Origin: Clostridia bacterium
Lineage (GTDB): Bacteria; Bacillota; Clostridia; TANB77; UBA1234
Length of the DNA: 64,000 nt
Assembly: GCA_017469545.1 (NCBI GenBank)
Contig: JAFUGE010000005.1
Span: 62,001-126,000, forward strand
Direction: 5' to 3'
The notes beneath the pieces were generated by a model. It saw only the letters and a program-made list of their open reading frames with translations. It searched no databases and had not been told where the DNA came from. Within the stretch, counting starts at the first letter, position 1. Each line of letters begins with the position of its first letter. Position numbers and translations under genes: made by a program. This document shows positions 13,505-47,290 of the stretch, piece by piece.

Positions 13505-14551
13505 CTACCCCAAAATTTTCATATTAGAAAACTTGGCCATCAATCGTTTCATGCCCACTTTCTCAAAATTAATTTCCACCACTAAATCGTCGTCTTCCGG
13601 CGTCACTTTCGTAATCACGCCAGCGCCAAACTTCTTATGCTCCACAGAAACGCCCTCTTTGAAAGCTGCCAAATCGGTATCTTCGTTTGCCTGAATGCCT
13701 TGCAAAAAGCTCTCGGCCGTTCTAAAACTAAATGCGGCAGCAGGAGACTTCTTGATATTTGGAACGCTACTTGTAAAGTAGTCGTCAAACTCATATGTCT
13801 TTCTCTCTGGTCTCTTTTGCATATTTCCCTCAATGTATTCTTGCGGCACTTCCGTCAAAAAGCGAGAAACAGAATTATACGAAGTACTTCCAAACGTGGT
13901 TCTGGAATTGGCGCACGTCAAATACAAATGCTCCTTTGCTCTCGTCACGCCTACGTAGCAAAGCCTGCGCTCCTCTTCTAGTTCTGGCTCTTCGCCAATC
14001 GAGCGATAGCTTGGGAACAAGCCATCCTCCATTCCCACCATAAATACCACAGGGAATTCTAGTCCTTTTGCGGTATGGAACGTCATTAGCCTAATGCTGT
14101 CTTGCTCTTCGTCTACCGAATCCAAATCCGTTACCAGCGCCAAATTCTCCAAGAAATCGTTTAGCGTATGTTCTGCTTCCTCATTCTCAAATTCAACGGC
14201 AACATTCAAAAACTCTCCTAAGTTCTCAATCCTGCTCTCAGACTCTGCCGACTCCTCAAGTTCTAGTGCAGACATATACCCTGACTCTTTTAATACCCTA
14301 GAAATCAGCCCCTCAATGCCAGAAGTATCCTTCTGCATCGTCTCGATAAATGTCACAAAATCGCGAATATTGGCGTTTGCCCTCGTCGCCACATATTGGT
14401 CAATATCCTTAATAATCGTAAACATCGAGACATTTTTATCATTCGAAATCATTTCGATTTGCTCCAGCGTCGTCTTACCAATGCCACGTTTTGGCTCATT
14501 GATAATTCTCTTCAAACTCACATCGTCATTCGGATTGGCAATCACTCTCAA
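13505..14551 (-). CDS. pcrA: PcrA/UvrD-type helicase, C-terminal fragment after an in-frame TGA
   Basis: 348 residues from a TTG codon, in the same frame as the upstream fragment. It holds helicase domain 2: RGIGKTTLEQIE, LMTFHTAKGLEFPVVFMVGM, LEEERRLCYVGVTRAKEHL, and the C-terminal PcrA tail (VEHKKFGAGVITKV..KRLMAKFSNMKIL). No ribosome site precedes the TTG, so independent translation is doubtful. Together with the upstream ORF and the bridge residues KEIKDIIAYL it adds up to a normal PcrA of about 745 residues. Confidence 0.88.
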   Translation of the reverse strand: MRVIANPNDDVSLKRIINEPKRGIGKTTLEQIEMISNDKNVSMFTIIKDIDQYVATRANANIRDFVTFIETMQKDTSGIEGLISRVLKESGYMSALELEESAESESRIENLGEFLNVAVEFENEEAEHTLNDFLENLALVTDLDSVDEEQDSIRLMTFHTAKGLEFPVVFMVGMEDGLFPSYRSIGEEPELEEERRLCYVGVTRAKEHLYLTCANSRTTFGSTSYNSVSRFLTEVPQEYIEGNMQKRPERKTYEFDDYFTSSVPNIKKSPAAAFSFRTAESFLQGIQANEDTDLAAFKEGVSVEHKKFGAGVITKVTPEDDDLVVEINFEKVGMKRLMAKFSNMKILG

Positions 14552-14578
14552 ATAAGCAATGATATCCTTAATTTCTTT

Positions 14579-15739
14579 TCATTCATAGAACTTCTGCCCG
14601 CCAACAACCTTGTATGGAATTCCCTCTCGCATAAAAACGGTTTCAAAAGCTCGCGACTGCGCATTCGTACGATACAAAATCGTAAAATCCGCATAATGAT
14701 AATACTCTTCTCTTCTTAAATGGTTTACTTGCTCTACCACGTAATTAGCCTCGTCATATTCGTCCTGCGCTTGATGGAACGTAGGCTTTTCTCCCGCCTC
14801 ATTTTCCGTCCACAAATTCTTCTTCACATTGCCCGTATTATGCTTAATTACTTCGTTTGCCAGTGCCAAAATATTTTTCGAAGAACGGTAATTTTGCTCT
14901 AGCTTAATCACTTTTGTATTCGGAAATGTCTTCTCAAAATTCAAAATATTCGAAATGTCAGCGCCTCTAAACTTATAAATACTCTGTTGGTCGTCACCAA
15001 CAACGCAAATATTATGATGTTTTCTTGCTAACATAGAAACAAGCAAATCCTGCGCCTTGTTGGTATCCTGATACTCGTCCACCAATATGTACTGAAACTT
15101 CTCTTGATAATACTCTAGCGTCTCCGGATTTTCTTTCAAAATACGAATCGCAACATCAATAATATCGTCAAAATCCAAAGCATTATTCTTTTTCAATTTC
15201 GCCTGATACAACGAATACGCCTTTGCCACATTGCTAAGCCTAAAATCACTCGCATACATATTCGCATATTGCACATCGCTAATCAAATCATTCTTCGCAC
15301 GGCTCACTTCGCCAAGCAAAAACTTATCACTATACATCTTATCATTCAAGTTTAGCTCTTTCATACACTGCTTCATAACCGTCTTAGAATCGCTCGTATC
15401 AAAAATCAAAAAATTCTTATCATAGCCGGCCTTCTCAATCTCGCGCCTTAGTAGTCGAACACACATCGCGTGAAACGTGCCAACCCACATATCTTTCGCC
15501 GTATCTTCGCCGATTAACTTCTCAATTCTCTCTTTCATTTCTCGCGCCGCTTTATTTGTAAACGTAATCGCAAGCACATTCCACGGCTTCACGTTATGAT
15601 TCGAAATCAAATTTGCAATACGATGCGTTAATACTCTCGTCTTGCCACTACCTGCCCCAGCAATGACCAAAAGTGGCCCCTCTGTATACATTACAGCCTC
15701 TTTCTGCTCTTTATTTAACCCCTCTAAAATATCCTGCAT
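14579..15739 (-). CDS. pcrA: PcrA/UvrD-type helicase, N-terminal fragment ending at TGA in place of a conserved Arg
   Basis: 386 residues. Walker A AGAGSGKT (27-34), AITFTNKAAREMKERI, VDEYQDTNKAQ, GDDQQSIYKFRGA and QNYRSSKNIL identify an SF1A 3'-5' helicase of the PcrA/UvrD family, used in repair and in clearing replication conflicts. It stops at GGQKFYE-TGA (14579-14581), where homologues read GGQKFYERKEIKD. The reading frame continues without a shift for another 358 codons. This is therefore a point nonsense change (CGA or AGA to TGA), a sequencing or strain variant, or readthrough. Start: AAGGAG then ATG. Confidence 0.9.
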   Translation of the reverse strand: MQDILEGLNKEQKEAVMYTEGPLLVIAGAGSGKTRVLTHRIANLISNHNVKPWNVLAITFTNKAAREMKERIEKLIGEDTAKDMWVGTFHAMCVRLLRREIEKAGYDKNFLIFDTSDSKTVMKQCMKELNLNDKMYSDKFLLGEVSRAKNDLISDVQYANMYASDFRLSNVAKAYSLYQAKLKKNNALDFDDIIDVAIRILKENPETLEYYQEKFQYILVDEYQDTNKAQDLLVSMLARKHHNICVVGDDQQSIYKFRGADISNILNFEKTFPNTKVIKLEQNYRSSKNILALANEVIKHNTGNVKKNLWTENEAGEKPTFHQAQDEYDEANYVVEQVNHLRREEYYHYADFTILYRTNAQSRAFETVFMREGIPYKVVGGQKFYE

Positions 15740-15935: not shown

Positions 15936-18251
15936 TCAAATCTCCACTTCAATCGTGTGAGTTTTTCCGTCGTCTACTAAGTCTATTTCTTCTGTGTTTA
16001 CCAAATTATTGTCCAAATAAATGCTCTTTACTCCTGCGGATTTATGATTTGGATTTTTGACTTTGATGGCATACGTGCTGCTCTTGTACTGGTACGTAAT
16101 CTCGTATTTTTCCCATTCTTTTGGAATGGCAGGCGCTATTCTTAATTTTTCTCCCCTCTTATCAAAGCCAAGAAGATACTTAAGGCCAGCAAAATAAAGC
16201 CACGCACTGGAGCCGGTGTACCACGTCCAGCCGCCTCTTCCTGCCAAATGGCTATTGGCATAAACATCTGCCGCCACTACATATGGCTCCACTTTATACC
16301 TCGCCGCGCTTTCCCTCGTTCTCGCGTGCTCAATTGGATTAATCATTCTAAAATATTCGCCTGCTCTATCGCCATTTTTCAAAATACTGTTCGCAACAAT
16401 TGCCCAAATTGCCCCATGGGTGTACTGCCCGCCATTTTCTCTGACACCTGGAATATACGCCTTGATATAACCCGGCTCCAGGGCACTCTGATAAAATGGC
16501 GGCGTGAGTAACTTGATTACCATATTTTCCTTGTCCACTAAGTAATTCTCCAAACTATCCATAGCGATACTCACTTTTTCCGCATCGCCTGCACCAGAAA
16601 TCACGGCCCAGCTCTGCGAAATCCCATCAATTTTGCACTCTTCATTTTGTGAGGACCCCAATGCCGTTCCGTCCGGAAAATACGCTCTTCGATACCATCT
16701 TCCGTCCCACGCATTTTGGTTGAGCGCCTCACGCAAATTCCCCATTACTTCCTCATATTTCCTGCTAAACTCCTTGTCACCACGCACCTCGCAAAGCCTC
16801 GAAAACTTTTTCAAAATATCATACAAGAAAAAGCCAAGCCAAACGCTCTCGCCACAAACCTGATTCATTCCGTCATTCCAGTCGCCGCCACCCATTTCCG
16901 GCAAGCCGTGCTCCCCAAAATGGAGGCTTACTTCAATTGCTTTCAAGCAGTGCCAATAAATGCTCTCTGAAACTTCCGAAACACTTGTCTCCTCATAAAT
17001 CTCGTCCTCGTCTTCTCCAAGTTTTCTTCCCTCTACGTATGGCACGGCCTCTTCCCAAATGCTGCTATCGCCCGTAACACAGGCATACTCATACACCACA
17101 TAAGGAAGCCAAAGCATATCGTCTTTATACCTCGTTCGAATGCCGTTATTTCTCTCCGGATGCCACCAGTGCAAAACATCGCCCTCGCGAAATTGATGCG
17201 CCGCACTATACAAAATCTGCTTCCTTGCCAAGGTTGGATTCGTCACCAAAATTCCCAGCAAGTCCTGCAGCTGGTCGCGAAAACCAAACGCTCCACCACA
17301 TTGATAAAAAGCCGTTCTCCCATAAAGTCTGCTCACAATCGTCTGATACGTAAGCCAGCCATTCATGATAATATTCATTGACTCCACAGGCGTCTTTACT
17401 TGCACGCCCTCTACCGTTTTTCTCCAATGTTCCTTCGTCTTGGCAAGCTCTTCCTCGGCGGAAGAAAAATCATTTCTCTCGCACTCTCCCAGTGAAAAAC
17501 ATACCGTCTTCTCCGCTTCTGGTCCCAACAAAACCTCCACTTCCAAAACCGCAAACGGATTCTGGCAAACGCCAAAACACTCCTCTAAAATTCCCTCTTC
17601 GATTTGAAACTGTTCCTTCTCGCAAGTCGCCTTCGTTATCGTTTCAGAGCTAGAAAGATACGTAATGCTATCCGCATAATGCTCACGATAATAGTTGCAT
17701 AAAGCCACAGCATTTCCCATTCTCTTCGATAAAATATGCTTCTTCGTCGTCTCCCTCGAAACGCCCAAAACAGGCTCTATGCAGTAATATAGCTTCAAAT
17801 ATTTTTCCTTAAGCGTCTCATTTTTAAATCGCAAAATACTTATCTTCTCCGGCAAATCATTGGGAACAAAAACAGTTAGTTCTTGCCTAACTCCCTCATA
17901 CGCCGTCTCAAAAGAGGCATAACCAAAGCCATAAGTAACCGTGTATTCTATTTGGCTGTCCACAGGTGTGGCTGTATAAACGCCCTCCTCGCCCTTAACG
18001 AAAATTACTTCCGACGGCCTATCTGAAACCTGGTCATTACTCCAAGTCGTAATCTTATTCTCTCTACTATTCCCATACCAAGTATAACCACCACCATTCG
18101 ATGTCACAAGCGTACCAAACTCGCGATTCGCCATCATATGCGCCCACGGCGCCGGCGTCCTCTGCTCAGCATTTATCTTAATCTGATACTCTTTTCCGTC
18201 CGCCGAAAACCCGCCAAACTCATTAAAATACAAAAGACTATCCCATTTCAT
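15936..18251 (-). CDS. Cyclic beta-1,2-glucan synthase, C-terminal GH94 phosphorylase fragment
   Basis: 771 residues from ATG 18251, which has GGAGGAG seven bases upstream; an upstream ATG (18278) in the same frame has no ribosome site. It begins with the carbohydrate-binding module (YFNEFGGFSADGKEYQI, TPAPWAHMMAN, GGGYTWYGNSRENKITTWSN) and contains the GH94 catalytic region with the acid Asp in GGGDWNDGM, plus FYQCGGAFGFRDQLQD and HWWHPERNNGIRTRYKDD. In NdvB-type enzymes this domain trims or regulates glucan length. It overlaps the previous fragment in another frame, so either a frameshift mutation or a coupled separate gene. Confidence 0.82.
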   Translation of the reverse strand: MKWDSLLYFNEFGGFSADGKEYQIKINAEQRTPAPWAHMMANREFGTLVTSNGGGYTWYGNSRENKITTWSNDQVSDRPSEVIFVKGEEGVYTATPVDSQIEYTVTYGFGYASFETAYEGVRQELTVFVPNDLPEKISILRFKNETLKEKYLKLYYCIEPVLGVSRETTKKHILSKRMGNAVALCNYYREHYADSITYLSSSETITKATCEKEQFQIEEGILEECFGVCQNPFAVLEVEVLLGPEAEKTVCFSLGECERNDFSSAEEELAKTKEHWRKTVEGVQVKTPVESMNIIMNGWLTYQTIVSRLYGRTAFYQCGGAFGFRDQLQDLLGILVTNPTLARKQILYSAAHQFREGDVLHWWHPERNNGIRTRYKDDMLWLPYVVYEYACVTGDSSIWEEAVPYVEGRKLGEDEDEIYEETSVSEVSESIYWHCLKAIEVSLHFGEHGLPEMGGGDWNDGMNQVCGESVWLGFFLYDILKKFSRLCEVRGDKEFSRKYEEVMGNLREALNQNAWDGRWYRRAYFPDGTALGSSQNEECKIDGISQSWAVISGAGDAEKVSIAMDSLENYLVDKENMVIKLLTPPFYQSALEPGYIKAYIPGVRENGGQYTHGAIWAIVANSILKNGDRAGEYFRMINPIEHARTRESAARYKVEPYVVAADVYANSHLAGRGGWTWYTGSSAWLYFAGLKYLLGFDKRGEKLRIAPAIPKEWEKYEITYQYKSSTYAIKVKNPNHKSAGVKSIYLDNNLVNTEEIDLVDDGKTHTIEVEI

Positions 18252-20190
18252 ACAGTTGCTCCTCCAATAATCCATCATGCGCGTCGAAGACGATATCGCT
18301 GCAGGCGTATAGCAAATTCATTTCTTCTTCGGTAATTTGTGTGTGCTTAATGACGTGAATGCCGCCGCTTCTGTTCAAAAGATAGTTCACATTTTGCGCA
18401 TTGATCAGCTCGTATATTTTGTCCTTTACGTATTCCTCATAACTATTTTCTTCTTCATTAACCAAAACCAAATCCACCTTGATTCTCTTGTGCTCCCAAT
18501 ACTCCGTAAGCGAAATAAGCTGCCTCAAAATTTCCGTCTCATTGATATTCTTGATTTTTAGCAGAATCATTGGCAAATCTCCCGAGATGCCAAACTTCCA
18601 TAAATCCCTCTGCTTTAGCCTACTTGCCATAATTTGCTTCTCGTATTTTTTCCTTGTCGGCGAGCCCGCGAGTATCTGCCCCATCACATCATTATACTTG
18701 CTAATTTCCTTAAAGCGATACCCCAAAAATCGATTCTCCACCAAGCTCCTCGAAAACGCCAGTTCATACACACGGCTTATCATATCAAGGTTATGATACT
18801 TCTCATAAATTTGGATACACTCCTCTTCGCTGCTCGCAAAGCCGTAGATATAGTGAATCGTTTTCTTCTCGCCCGGCAAAATACTTACGTTTGTTTTATA
18901 CGAAAGAATCGTATTCAAATTCGGAAAAACTTCATTCGAATAAACCTTATCCTTAAACGCAATCGATGCATTCGCAATATTTCTGCCGCTTCCAATCACT
19001 TTGCTTTTATCAATTTCAAAATCAAATTTCTCGTCCAAATTTTCTTCCGCAAACGCAAAGTGCACAAAATACTTATCGTCCGCCTTGCTATCTCTATTTT
19101 TTCTTTTCAAAATGCAAGCATCTTTGTAACGACTTACACTCAAAAACAAATTCTGAAACGCCATATGCGCAATGTCGTCTTCCTGCTTACAAAGCGGGTT
19201 TTCGAGATAACTAATGACATCCATTTCGGCCTGCTCTTCTCTATGATTGTGAAGACTCACGCTTCGAATTTCTACATTATCCTCTGGAGAAATCGCAATC
19301 TTCGTCGTTGTATCAATGTTTTCGTCGCTCCTCAAAAACTTGCAAACTGCCGGAGAAAATTCCACTTGATATCTATCCGGTTCTCGAAGCTCCGGTGCCT
19401 TACTATTCGTCCAAACAAGATTGTTTTTTATATCTTTTAAATAAATCACATTCGACTGTAGCTGGGAATCCTTAAACCTCGTAAGATAATTCCCCTTGCA
19501 AACACTATATCCTTGCCCAAAATCGTCTATCAACAAAGTGTAATTATCATTCGATAAGATATTCACAAAACCGCCCGGATTGTTGATAATTCTCTCGCTA
19601 TACTCTTCATAATCTTGGTACTTTAGCGCCTCAATTTTCTCTTTTTTCTTCTTCGTGAAAATCACATTTTGTGGCACTCTCTCCTGAAGCAAAATTTCCA
19701 AAGTCTTGATTTCCTGATTACGCGAAAATCTCTCTTTCAAAATATCCTCATTTAAAAAATTATTAATCGAAAGCAAAATCAGTGCCTGATGGTGCGCCAT
19801 ATATGTCTTCACGACAGCTTTTCGCTTCTTTCCCACACGGTTAGGCGTATAATCAATCGCGTCATAAAAACCATACTTGCTATACGCCCCGGCTCTCTTC
19901 AATGCCTTAATGTTTTTCAGTACTTCCTTTTCGTCTTTATCGATGGCCATGATAGAGCTGTACGGAGAAACAACCACTTCTTCCTTTAGTCCACGCTTCA
20001 CGCCAAGCCAAGGAATGCCAAACGCCTTATATTGATAGTTATAGTTCAAATCCTGCAAATAGTACGCCGACTCAGAAATGCCAAACGGAATGTCCAATTT
20101 CTTCGCATATTTTTTCTGACTGTAGATACAAAATTCATACGTCTCGTCCATCAATGTATACGCAAAATTTTTCATGACCACATACGGCAT
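18238..20190 (-). CDS. Cyclic beta-1,2-glucan synthase, middle fragment (glycoamylase and first carbohydrate-binding region)
   Basis: 650 residues, in the same frame as the upstream fragment but separated by a TAA. It continues the glycoamylase-like domain (MDETYEFCIYSQKKYAK, PFGISESAYYLQDL, YQYKAFGIPWLGVKRGL, YMAHHQALILLSINN) and then a binding module that shares the GH94-associated fold (NNLVWTNSKAPELREPDRYQ, VEIRSVSLHNHREEQAEMDV). No ribosome site precedes its ATG. It ends in TAG 14 bases inside the next fragment, where the frame changes. Confidence 0.8.
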   Translation of the reverse strand: MPYVVMKNFAYTLMDETYEFCIYSQKKYAKKLDIPFGISESAYYLQDLNYNYQYKAFGIPWLGVKRGLKEEVVVSPYSSIMAIDKDEKEVLKNIKALKRAGAYSKYGFYDAIDYTPNRVGKKRKAVVKTYMAHHQALILLSINNFLNEDILKERFSRNQEIKTLEILLQERVPQNVIFTKKKKEKIEALKYQDYEEYSERIINNPGGFVNILSNDNYTLLIDDFGQGYSVCKGNYLTRFKDSQLQSNVIYLKDIKNNLVWTNSKAPELREPDRYQVEFSPAVCKFLRSDENIDTTTKIAISPEDNVEIRSVSLHNHREEQAEMDVISYLENPLCKQEDDIAHMAFQNLFLSVSRYKDACILKRKNRDSKADDKYFVHFAFAEENLDEKFDFEIDKSKVIGSGRNIANASIAFKDKVYSNEVFPNLNTILSYKTNVSILPGEKKTIHYIYGFASSEEECIQIYEKYHNLDMISRVYELAFSRSLVENRFLGYRFKEISKYNDVMGQILAGSPTRKKYEKQIMASRLKQRDLWKFGISGDLPMILLKIKNINETEILRQLISLTEYWEHKRIKVDLVLVNEEENSYEEYVKDKIYELINAQNVNYLLNRSGGIHVIKHTQITEEEMNLLYACSDIVFDAHDGLLEEQLYEMG

Positions 20191-20196
20191 AAAATA

Positions 20197-23100
20197 TTAA
20201 AACATCGTTCCCGCCCAGGAAATAAGACCCTTGTGCTTGTCCAATGTCGTAAGCGTTCTGCCCAGACTAAACCAATGTTTATACGGCACATCTCTTTTGG
20301 CAATCGCCACAAAGCTTGCCAGCCTTGCCTCCGACGCCAGCAAATCATAATACGAATCTACCAACTTATTTTCCTTAGCATCAAACCCTACGGAAAACAA
20401 GCTTTTTTTCGCATCATACAGCGTTTTAAAATCCGTATCGTAAATTAGTTTTTGGATGTGATTTATCATTTCTAAAACTTTCTCATTTTTACTATCTTTC
20501 TTTTTGCATTCCTCCAAAGCCTGCCAGGTAACATACAAATACCCCACAAAATTACCACTGTCGACTGTCGAAACAAAGGCCGGCTGCAAAATTTCTTTCG
20601 TTTCAATGTTATACCAATTGTATAAATGCCCTTTCCATTTTTCCAAAGAGCAAATCGTGCGAATGCTTTTGTAAAGCCTGTCTATCATTTCCTCTTCCGA
20701 AATAAAACCCAAATCTTTGGCAGAAATAATCGTAAGAAGGCCTAGGCCAATATTCGTCGAAGAAGTGCGTGGCACCACTAAATCTTTGCGCTTATTTTGA
20801 TAATTGTCGGGCGGCAAATAGTGGTATCGTTCGTTCATATATTCTTTAAAATAGTTCCACGTGCGCTCTGCAATATCCAACAATTCTGTTTGGGATTGCG
20901 GGCCGTGTACGACGTTGCTCTTACGGGTTTGTCCCTCGGTAACGCCAATTCCAAAACTAATATATGGCATGGCAAACCAAATGATAAATAGCGCAAACGC
21001 GGCCGCCATCGGAATTGGATTGTAAATCAAACACGTCTCCATTAACGCAAATCCAATAAGAGAACTCACTATCATTTCTCGGACAAAACTTCTCAAGTCT
21101 TTTCCCAAAACTTTTTCTGCGTCCGCCGCCGTCAACCACTCCAGAAGATGCTTCTTCGAAATCGTCATTCGATAAAGCGTGACGACAATTGCCTCTAAAA
21201 GTAACATCGCCTTATACGGCAAAAACACGAGCTCTAGCGTGCAGCGATAAAGTGAACCTTTTAGCCCCGCAATAATCGGCAAATAATTTTTATTCTTGAT
21301 GCGAACATCGTCGCCCGTCTGGCGTATTGAACTGCTTAGCTTATACACAAACGTATCCAATGCATCTAAGAGAAACGGAAAGAAAATCACAAAAAGTGGC
21401 AAGACATAAAAGCCGCAAAAAAACAAACTCATAAGCGAAATTTCAATCAAGCTTCTTCTCAAATTATCAAAAATTTTATACTTTGATAAAGGGTTAAGGG
21501 GACCCTTAAAAAGCCATCTCACAATCTGCCAATCGCCTCGCGTCCAGCGTTTCAGCCTAACCATATAGGAATTCACTCGGCTTGGAAATCCGTCAATCAC
21601 TTCCACGTCAGACGCTAGTCCCGCACGCACAAAACTTCCCTCCAGCAAATCGTGGCTAAGCACTGTGTTTTCTGGAATTTGTCCCTCCAAGGTTTTCTGA
21701 AAAACTTCGACGTTATAAATTCCCTTTCCCGTAAAAATCGCTTCTCCAAACACATCTTGGTACACATTCGACTCCGCCGTAGAATATAAATCTAGTCCAC
21801 CACTTCCCGCATAAATCTTAGAAAAAATCGAGCTAGTAGAACTCTCTAGCGAGATTCCCACTTTCGGCTGAATTAAGCCATACCCCTCCGTTACAATTCC
21901 ATTTTTTATCACTGGCTGATTGAGTGGATGTTCCATAATCCCAATTAATTTCTTCGCTGAATCCAGAATCAATTCCGTATCCGCGTCGAGCGTAATCACG
22001 TATTTGATTTTCTTTTCTAATAGTTCGTTCGGAATGGTATTGGCCCTAAACGTGCCCTGCGCGCCGGTTTGCAAAAGATTATTAAACTCAACGAGCATTC
22101 CTCTTTTTCGCTCGTATCCTAAGTACTTTTCTTGTCCCTCGCTATAGACTCTCTTGCGATACAAGAAGAAAAAAATCTCTTTGCCATACTTCTCGTTTAA
22201 TCGCTTCGCCTCTGCAAATCCAGTCTTTACAACCTCTTCGTCAAACGGCATTTCCTCCCTGTCTTCTTCCGATGCATCGCCAAGAAGTGCAAAATATAAG
22301 TGCTCCATCTTGTTGCCCAAATAATAGCGCTCGATACTTTGCATCAAATTTTCGACTCTCTCTTTGCTGTTTAAAAGCGTCGGAACCACAACAAACGTAT
22401 TCACGTCTTCCGGAATTTCTTCTAAGCGCGGAAGCAGTTTCGGCCTAACGCTTTTCGTTAAAATTTTATTTGTGAGATACACAAAAATTTCTGAAATCGG
22501 AATCAACGCCAACACAAAAAACTTCTTTGCGAGCAAAATAGAAAACACAATCGTAGGCAAATAAATGGCGACAACATACTCAAACGTTTTTAATCCCAGT
22601 GGCTTCCTTTTCTCTAATCGTTTGATGCCAAGGCTTTTCCAAAACTCGTCTTTACGACTTCCAAATAAGCTTAGGCCAATGTGCTCTCCTTCTCCCGCCA
22701 TTTCTACGAGCTTTTCCGCCACATACACTTCGGACGTATGGCTCTTCTTCGCAATCCTCGTAATCTCTTGTCGATAGCTATTTTTCGTATCAAAATCCAA
22801 TTTCGGATACCACTTGTCCTTGCTTAAAATCGCATCAATCGAATTAATATTTTCAAAAAGATTCACAAAATTAAAACGCGAAACATTCCTGATACTGGTA
22901 ATGCAATTCGCCATCGAAACGCGGCGAAGCGCCAAATCATAATGCTCCGTTCGAATCACTTCGCTCGTCGTCGTGCCAACTTTTCTAATCTCCTCCTCCA
23001 AAATCTGCACGTACACCGCGCCATCTTTGCCAAACTTTTTAAGGCAATAAATCAAATACTCTACATACGAAGTCGCCTCCGTATCTAGAATAATACTCTT

Positions 23101-23655
23101 ATACTTGTGGAATCGCTGCTCACTTACCGGTTTATTTTTCACCACGCGCTCCACCAAACTCTCCACTTTAAACTTTTGCAGTTGCGCCGCGGTAATCTTC
23201 TCGCACAAGTCTTTCATGTACTCAATCAGGCTAATTTTCAGCATCACAGGAAGCATCCAAAGCTCGTCCACCAAAATACTTTTCTTCGTTTGGTACGCCC
23301 TCAAGAAATTTTCTACATTCTCCTCTGTAATCGAAGCGTCCGTAAATTTCACAAGTTCCTTGGCAATCAAATAAATCCTGCTCACGCCATTCACCGACGG
23401 AAGCTTTTGATACTGAGAAAGCGTCATTTCCTTTTTCAGACTATTTACTTGCTCCTCAATCAAATAGTAGTTATCCAAAATCCACTCGCCACTAGGCGGA
23501 ATCGGCACATTCTTAGCGATACTCTCATTTAAAATATCATACGTACGCCCAATATACTCAAAATCACTTTTCAGCTTACGAATCGGGAAAGACTTCCTAC
23601 TAGAGCCACTCACAACCTTATGGTCCAGCGCAAGCTTCTTCGCATAATTTTCCAT
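20197..23655 (-). CDS. Cyclic beta-1,2-glucan synthase, N-terminal fragment (membrane glycosyltransferase GT84)
   Basis: 1152 residues from ATG 23655 (GAGGTG five bases upstream). A helical N-terminal domain, paired membrane helices near residue 390, a GT84-type glycosyltransferase core (VITLDADTELILDSAKKLIG, LSHDLLEGSFVRAG, RLKRWTRGDWQIVRW), more membrane helices, and the beginning of a glycoamylase-like domain (TSSTNIGLGLL, AFVSTVDSGNFVGYLYVTWQ). NdvB/Cgs enzymes make periplasmic or extracellular cyclic glucans from UDP-glucose. The ORF stops at GTMF-TAA (20197-20199) where homologues continue GTMFEYLMP, i.e. GAA to TAA. Confidence 0.85.
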   Translation of the reverse strand: MENYAKKLALDHKVVSGSSRKSFPIRKLKSDFEYIGRTYDILNESIAKNVPIPPSGEWILDNYYLIEEQVNSLKKEMTLSQYQKLPSVNGVSRIYLIAKELVKFTDASITEENVENFLRAYQTKKSILVDELWMLPVMLKISLIEYMKDLCEKITAAQLQKFKVESLVERVVKNKPVSEQRFHKYKSIILDTEATSYVEYLIYCLKKFGKDGAVYVQILEEEIRKVGTTTSEVIRTEHYDLALRRVSMANCITSIRNVSRFNFVNLFENINSIDAILSKDKWYPKLDFDTKNSYRQEITRIAKKSHTSEVYVAEKLVEMAGEGEHIGLSLFGSRKDEFWKSLGIKRLEKRKPLGLKTFEYVVAIYLPTIVFSILLAKKFFVLALIPISEIFVYLTNKILTKSVRPKLLPRLEEIPEDVNTFVVVPTLLNSKERVENLMQSIERYYLGNKMEHLYFALLGDASEEDREEMPFDEEVVKTGFAEAKRLNEKYGKEIFFFLYRKRVYSEGQEKYLGYERKRGMLVEFNNLLQTGAQGTFRANTIPNELLEKKIKYVITLDADTELILDSAKKLIGIMEHPLNQPVIKNGIVTEGYGLIQPKVGISLESSTSSIFSKIYAGSGGLDLYSTAESNVYQDVFGEAIFTGKGIYNVEVFQKTLEGQIPENTVLSHDLLEGSFVRAGLASDVEVIDGFPSRVNSYMVRLKRWTRGDWQIVRWLFKGPLNPLSKYKIFDNLRRSLIEISLMSLFFCGFYVLPLFVIFFPFLLDALDTFVYKLSSSIRQTGDDVRIKNKNYLPIIAGLKGSLYRCTLELVFLPYKAMLLLEAIVVTLYRMTISKKHLLEWLTAADAEKVLGKDLRSFVREMIVSSLIGFALMETCLIYNPIPMAAAFALFIIWFAMPYISFGIGVTEGQTRKSNVVHGPQSQTELLDIAERTWNYFKEYMNERYHYLPPDNYQNKRKDLVVPRTSSTNIGLGLLTIISAKDLGFISEEEMIDRLYKSIRTICSLEKWKGHLYNWYNIETKEILQPAFVSTVDSGNFVGYLYVTWQALEECKKKDSKNEKVLEMINHIQKLIYDTDFKTLYDAKKSLFSVGFDAKENKLVDSYYDLLASEARLASFVAIAKRDVPYKHWFSLGRTLTTLDKHKGLISWAGTMF

Positions 23656-23725
23656 ATGGCACCTCGAACATTCAACATTTACCATTATTATGTGCCAACA
23701 TTGTCAAATTATACAAAAAGCAAAA

Positions 23726-46216: not shown

Positions 46217-46522
46217 ATGAAAACTCTTTTGGAAGAATTAGCACAAAAATTGAATATTACATTATCGGAAAAACAGCTTGACCAATTTTTGCTTTATCAA
46301 AACGAATTAAAAGAATGGAATGAAAAAATTAATTTGACGGCTATCACGGAAGATAGAGAAATTATTGTGAAGCATTTTATTGATTCTTTGACGATATTAA
46401 AATACGTTGGCGATGGCGACAAAATGATTGATGTGGGTACTGGCGCTGGGTTTCCTGGTATTCCTGTGAAGATTGCAAAGCCTGATACAGACGTGACATT
46501 GCTGGATTCTTTGAATAAATGA
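46217..46522 (+). CDS. rsmG: 16S rRNA G527 methyltransferase RsmG, N-terminal fragment ending at an in-frame TGA
   Basis: 101 residues. LDQFLLYQNELKEWNEKINLTAI, the catalytic-fold segment KHFIDSLTIL and the SAM loop MIDVGTGAGFPGIPVKIAKP identify RsmG (GidB). It stops at LLDSLNK-TGA (46520-46522), where the family has Arg followed by a hydrophobic helix. The frame continues uninterrupted for 141 codons, so this is a single nonsense change. AAAGGAG precedes the ATG. Confidence 0.9.
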   Translation: MKTLLEELAQKLNITLSEKQLDQFLLYQNELKEWNEKINLTAITEDREIIVKHFIDSLTILKYVGDGDKMIDVGTGAGFPGIPVKIAKPDTDVTLLDSLNK

Positions 46523-46596
46523 TTACTTTTCTTACAGAATATTATTGAGAAGAATTCGCTTGAAAAAATTACTTGTGTTCACGGAAGAGCGGAAGA

Positions 46597-46612
46597 TGTT
46601 TCACGTGAAACA
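46597..46612. promoter_or_regulatory. parS partition site inside rsmG
   Basis: Perfect TGTTTCACGTGAAACA within the rsmG reading frame, encoding D-V-S-R-E-T. Confidence 0.93.
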
Positions 46613-46660
46613 ATACATCGAGAAGCATATGATATTGCTACTGCGAGAGCCGTTGCAAAC

Positions 46661-46945
46661 ATGGCAACACTGGCGGAACTGTGCTTGTCTTTTGTAAAAG
46701 TTGGCGGGAAATTTATTTGTATGAAGGGCAATAATATTGACGAGGTAGAGGAAGGAAAAAAGGCGATTGAGGTATTGGGCGGCAAAATAGAAACCATTGA
46801 GAAATTATCATTGCCTGTCATTGACGCTGCTCGTGATGGGGATAGCAACATAGAACGTAATATTATTATCATTCGCAAAATAAAAAACACTCCAAAAGAA
46901 TACCCGAGAAAAGCGGGAACACCTGCCAAAAATCCTATCAAATAG
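46661..46945 (+). CDS. rsmG: RsmG, C-terminal fragment
   Basis: The first possible start after the TGA is the ATG at 46661, in the same frame as the N-terminal fragment; homology itself resumes right after the stop (LLFLQNIIEKNSLEKITCVH, then DIATARAVANMATL). The fragment holds the C-terminal part (ELCLSFVKVGGKFICMKG, RNIIIIRKIKNTPKEYPRKA) with the usual RsmG ending. No ribosome site precedes the ATG, so it is probably not translated on its own. Confidence 0.85.
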   Translation: MATLAELCLSFVKVGGKFICMKGNNIDEVEEGKKAIEVLGGKIETIEKLSLPVIDAARDGDSNIERNIIIIRKIKNTPKEYPRKAGTPAKNPIK

Positions 46946-46959
46946 ATTTCAACTCAAGT

Positions 46960-47166
46960 GCCACAAAGAGGTAATGGGAAGGGGCTTGAAAACACTTCTC
47001 CGATTTCACAATCTCTAGTGAATTGCTTCAACAAAAACTAAAAAGATATGTTGGATTCCTTCAGCTTCGCTCCAACATATCTTTTAATTTTTTGTAATCA
47101 GCAATTCCCAAGACATTGGAAATCTCCGAAATGTTTTCAAGGCCCTTCCCATTACCGCTTTGTGGC
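46960..47166. repeat. Giant 207-base palindrome between rsmG and parA
   Basis: Outer arms GCCACAAAG.GGTAATGGGAAGG ... CCTTCCCATTACCGCTTTGTGGC, middle arms GAATTGCT / AGCAATTC and inner arms AAAAGATATGTTGGA / TCCAACATATCTTTT fold around a 15-base loop. The arms are about 95 bases long with scattered mismatches. It has no coding capacity. The flanking 47167-47290 is AT-rich and holds nothing I recognise apart from the parA leader. Confidence 0.85.
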
Positions 47167-47290
47167 GTTAGCACTGAAAGTTATTTTAAAAATTTTTCTC
47201 AAAACTATATACAAAAATAAATTAAATCGATATAATATTTTTGAAAAATGAAAAGTCGAAAGAGGAACAACTACGCAGTTTGATGCGACG

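Follow-up and report, generated by a model that had tools for sequence, protein, structure and literature searches.

Whether a bacterium still reads UGA as a stop is called into question when conserved genes contain TGA within their frames. The methyltransferase gene rsmG raises this question in the window analysed here, a stretch of 64,000 nucleotides (bases 62001-126000 of contig C1) from the genome of an uncultured gut member of the Clostridia, since a TGA interrupts it at a position where its relatives have a basic residue. The answer that fits best, with a probability of about 0.86, is that the assembled sequence carries an ordinary nonsense substitution here, that the organism uses the standard code, and that the TGA is either a very recent variant or a consensus error.

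The genome comprises 1.24 Mb (1,242 kb) in 24 contigs and is 99.6% complete with 0.5% contamination; among named relatives, the nearest are metagenome assemblies of gut Clostridia. Protein-family and tRNA searches covered the entire genome. In-frame stops were scanned by codon usage over 802 kb of the 1,242 kb (65% of the genome), and lesions were scanned by protein homology over about 260 kb. The counts of arginine codons and gene ends drew on homologues in nine stretches taken from related genomes. The relatives named individually are G001, which belongs to the same genus, and further G003, G004, G006 and G012. The features discussed are collected in Table 1.

Table 1. Positions of the interrupted genes, their lesions and associated elements; positions without a contig refer to the window.
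Feature	Position	Strand	Details and basis
rsmG (gidB), 16S rRNA G527 N7-methyltransferase	46217..46945	+	Interrupted by in-frame TGA, codon 102 of 242
TGA stop codon at conserved Arg/Lys position of rsmG	46520..46522	+	R/K column in relatives
pcrA DNA helicase, interrupted by TGA	13505..15739	-	TIGR01073 aligns over 2-381 before the stop and over 383-724 after it
TGA replacing the conserved Arg of pcrA (FYE*KEI), codon 387	14579..14581	-	R in G001, G006, G012, G004
Cyclic-glucan-synthase-like long gene with an interrupting TAA; domains glucoamylase-like and GH94 supersandwich	18238..23685	-	Pfam; G006 frame
TAA at Glu of relatives	20197..20199	-	Third nonsense lesion in window, not UGA; comparison with relatives
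GH57 branching enzyme, TAA at Glu	G000:C16:32356		Protein-homology scan
ypeB, one-base frameshift	C3, near 151521		Protein-homology scan
Probable mreC, one-base frameshift	C21, near 8138		Named from gene order and length only
tRNA-Trp(CCA), 4-bp anticodon stem (A27.C43 unpaired), U11-A24 pair	G000:C8:31429-31502		tRNA sequence and fold
Hairpin-forming repeat GTAGGGGCAGCGTATCACGCTGCCC and variants	3901, 5741, 41055, 48130, 49257, 54985, 60052, 62994		Also elsewhere

Two interrupted genes

The first-pass annotation had proposed that a TGA lies within an otherwise complete rsmG, and this is borne out. The 242-codon frame continues beyond the stop (LLDSLNK-TGA-LLFLQN) to the normal C-terminus and, when read through, it matches RsmG over its whole length (Pfam GidB, 3.5e-52; NCBIfam TIGR00138, 8.5e-52). 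The Pfam GidB alignment crosses the stop, and the genome search flags '1 TGA' inside the match. The residue expected at this position had been given as arginine, which is correct for 69 of 80 relatives and has to be widened to lysine for the other 11; none of the 80 has a stop in this column. In the same taxonomic family, rsmG is open in all 11 of the other matches above the cut-off.

A second gene of the window was also said to carry TGA at an arginine position. This gene is pcrA, and the comparison agrees: the site reads FYE-R-KEI in four out of four relatives. No other match in the genome reaches PcrA strength: the interrupted gene scores 324.6 bits and the runner-up 150. In B. subtilis, cells die without pcrA unless recJ, recA, recO or mfd is lost as well; alleles of recF and recR are reported as further suppressors (PMC7385302). 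Given that mfd and recJ are intact in the present genome, as is recF within the window, a fixed pcrA null is unlikely. More probably the consensus is wrong at this site, the stop belongs to a minor variant, or the allele is partially read through or suppressed.

Decoding of UGA

A window with two TGA codons in frame resembles a case of recoding until the rest of the genome is counted, and caution is needed for this reason. The first-pass annotation had raised recoding or a suppressor as possible causes, and had reasoned that a lack of further TGA-at-arginine cases and of a suppressor tRNA would speak against them. This is largely what is seen. Over the 802 kb scanned by codon usage, no TGA beyond these two was seen inside a gene, leaving no further TGA-at-arginine case in the scanned 65% of the genome. 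At arginine-aligned positions, the homologue alignment contains an arginine codon 1,588 times, 110 of these being CGA, against TGA only twice. The earlier argument that properly TGA-ended genes are at odds with wholesale reassignment also holds, since TGA terminates 14 of the 151 genes whose ends coincide with the ends of their relatives.

The termination machinery is likewise unchanged. The genome encodes intact RF1 and RF2, the latter with its SPF and GGQ motifs, and prfB, the gene of RF2, keeps the in-frame CTT-TGA-C (CTTTGAC) programmed +1 frameshift site (contig C8; positions 819-897 of the segment L070), which has a short upstream frame, MLELEEPKQLLKELEKKLSEMGESL-stop. The programmed frameshift in prfB requires UGA to be a slow stop. 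The retention of the site therefore means that RF2 continues to control its own synthesis through termination at UGA.

The tRNA model recovered 35 tRNAs from the whole genome, all of which could be typed, with ACG, CCT and TCT as the arginine anticodons. None of the 35 has the anticodon UCA, in a list that is incomplete because tRNAs for Ala and Ile were not recovered, and the cognate suppressor tRNA suggested at first pass has no candidate among them. Selenocysteine at the TGA sites was also considered and was rejected, as the genome search returned no tRNA-Sec above the cut-off and the sites correspond to arginine.

Thus, the genetic code is standard here, with UGA read as a stop. That UGA has truly been reassigned to arginine in this lineage, or is used for it in addition to termination, would agree with the location of both UGA codons at conserved arginine positions. 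This is contradicted by the codon counts and the retention of CGA for arginine, by an RF2 that keeps its UGA frameshift, by UGA at conserved gene ends and by the lack of a UCA tRNA among those typed, and we regard it as exceedingly improbable.

Bacterial reassignments of UGA are known, to tryptophan in the Mycoplasmatales and insect symbionts, and to glycine in Absconditabacteria and Gracilibacteria (PMC8629427). The present case is similar in that in-frame UGA is found at conserved sites in a small genome of fairly low GC. A recoded UGA would be expected to stand for one amino acid at many conserved sites across the genome, RF2 to be lost together with termination at UGA, and a cognate tRNA to bear the anticodon UCA. 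Here there are two sites only, at arginine; RF2 is present, UGA still terminates genes, and the UCA tRNA was not found.

A tRNA-Trp with a four-base-pair anticodon stem

UGA could also remain a stop and yet be leaky, if a near-cognate tRNA-Trp(CCA) with a 4-bp anticodon stem reads some UGA codons as tryptophan, so that lesions are tolerated even in pcrA. The only tRNA-Trp found in the genome has a stem of this kind: in its anticodon arm, AGAGT-CTCCAAA-ACTCC, positions 27 and 43 are A and C and stay open when the sequence is folded. The stem is identical or nearly so in 12 of 13 genomes of the family, and these 12 are all those in which the tRNA was found. In E. coli, overexpression of a 4-bp-stem tRNA-Trp(CCA) is reported to increase UGA read-through approximately 2.5-fold, and genomes with such a tRNA to have fewer UGA stops (PMC13092985). 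In addition, the sole lesion in a probably essential gene, that in pcrA, is a UGA.

The tRNA described in that study and the one found here share the open pair at the top of the stem (A27.C43). The tRNA here also has A24, which places it outside the strict 'Blastocrithidia-like' class (PMC13092985), and any read-through by it is putative. Outside this family, the same form recurs in a number of families of the order.

Several observations weigh against leaky UGA as the cause. The tRNA is family-wide, whereas the rsmG stop is found in no other genome of the family; the tRNA therefore does not explain why the lesions are in this genome only. No TGA lesion was found in G012 or G004 in the approximately 245 kb searched in each, while lesions of the UAA and frameshift kinds do occur in the present genome. 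Approximately 6.5% of standard-code genomes have a 4-bp-stem tRNA-Trp(CCA) as their only one (PMC13092985), and TGA is still used at conserved gene ends. We consider tolerance through leaky UGA unlikely, although a tRNA-Trp of this form could soften UGA lesions, inserting tryptophan and not arginine. It is very unlikely that the whole family is in a standing state of ambiguous UGA, en route to UGA as a tryptophan codon; if leakiness were true, the lineage would be a natural setting in which to study such a transition with release factor 2 still present. A literature search on UGA read-through in connection with rsmG found nothing.

Lesions of other kinds and their background

Across the approximately 260 kb covered by protein homology there are four nonsense lesions, namely TGA in rsmG and pcrA, and TAA in the glucan-synthase-like gene and in the gene of the GH57 branching enzyme. 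Both halves of the glucan-synthase-like gene are covered by a single open frame of 1775 aa in G006. Since TAA replaces Glu in two genes, and one-base frameshifts interrupt ypeB and probable mreC, the lesions are not specific to UGA or to arginine. Some candidates did not stand: a suspected frameshift near 18238-18278 in the glucan synthase is not a lesion, as G006 likewise splits there into overlapping genes, and in-frame stops from an early scan (C3:110930, C3:111047 and window 50960) were false hits, antisense or in a tRNA region.

Related metagenome assemblies have a similar low background of lesions. In similar searches of approximately 245 kb each, G012 had two nonsense lesions and several frameshift-like breaks, and G004 had no nonsense lesion and several frameshift-like breaks. 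Nonsense-interrupted genes, whether pseudogenes or consensus errors, are familiar from metagenome-assembled genomes; there, in-frame stops and frameshifts are scattered singly, the relatives are intact, and tRNAs and release factors are unchanged. The present case shows the same picture, with intact orthologues, a single stop, a conserved frame and other lesion types in the genome. There is no essential difference from the known cases; here pcrA, essential in model Firmicutes, is among the genes affected. The cause is thus an ordinary one that involves no new genetic code, and the mixed lesion types together with the standard code favour mutation or consensus error as the source of the TGA codons.

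If the rsmG stop is present in living cells, RF2 would read the UGA as a stop and release an RsmG of 101 residues that has the SAM-binding loop but not the remainder of the methyltransferase fold (the C-terminal 60%). A strain truly carrying the stop would be an RsmG null. The rsmG and pcrA lesions may be very recent variants in the sampled population or errors of the assembly consensus. The rsmG lesion is one of various single-base lesions that form a low background throughout the genome.

Origin and age of the lesions

The possibility of C-to-T changes at CGA codons, also put forward at first pass, may apply to some of the sites. It is possible for pcrA, where G001 has CGA. For rsmG, the codons of the relatives are mixed, with AGA in G001 and CGA in G012 and G003. 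The two further nonsense lesions cannot be accounted for in this way, because TAA at Glu needs another change.

Under simple substitution models, approximately 22% of nonsense changes lead to TGA, and 26-28% of those arise from arginine codons. Uniform substitution gives TGA at arginine in about 6% of nonsense lesions, and the two out of four seen here are mildly unusual. As this is a mild coincidence, recoding is not needed to explain it.

For both rsmG and pcrA, sequence identity upstream and downstream of the stop is the same as in intact pairs. Lineage-specific changes past the stop are not more frequent in comparison with G001 (11 versus 13 for pcrA, 1 versus 0 for rsmG). Because conservation downstream of the stops equals that of intact relatives, the lesions appear to be recent; judged from sequence, they might alternatively not be real alleles, or the regions might still be translated. 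A test of sequence accuracy based on unusual substitutions gave no excess, where the expected excess was only about 2-3 changes, too few to give the test any power. If all four nonsense changes were errors, the implied rate of approximately 3e-4 substitutions per base would be high by the standards of short-read consensus sequence.

A genuine loss of rsmG, adaptive or neutral, for example under streptomycin-like selection and unrelated to pcrA, would be a sub-case of the preferred reading in which the allele is real. Within the order, 40 of 287 genomes lack a strong match to rsmG, and the gene therefore looks dispensable. Moreover, it is well documented that rsmG loss confers low-level streptomycin resistance. 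However, the sequence past the stop is undecayed, and a lesion in the probably essential pcrA suggests a common, non-adaptive cause. We regard genuine loss as possible, if somewhat doubtful.

Repeats in the window

Between rsmG and soj/parA, window positions 46929-47197 form a large imperfect inverted repeat with arms of 79 nt that are 76% complementary, and a second hairpin is nested within it. Separately, a short hairpin-forming repeat (GTAGGGGCAGCGTATCACGCTGCCC and variants) is present in many copies across the genome, mostly in intergenic positions.
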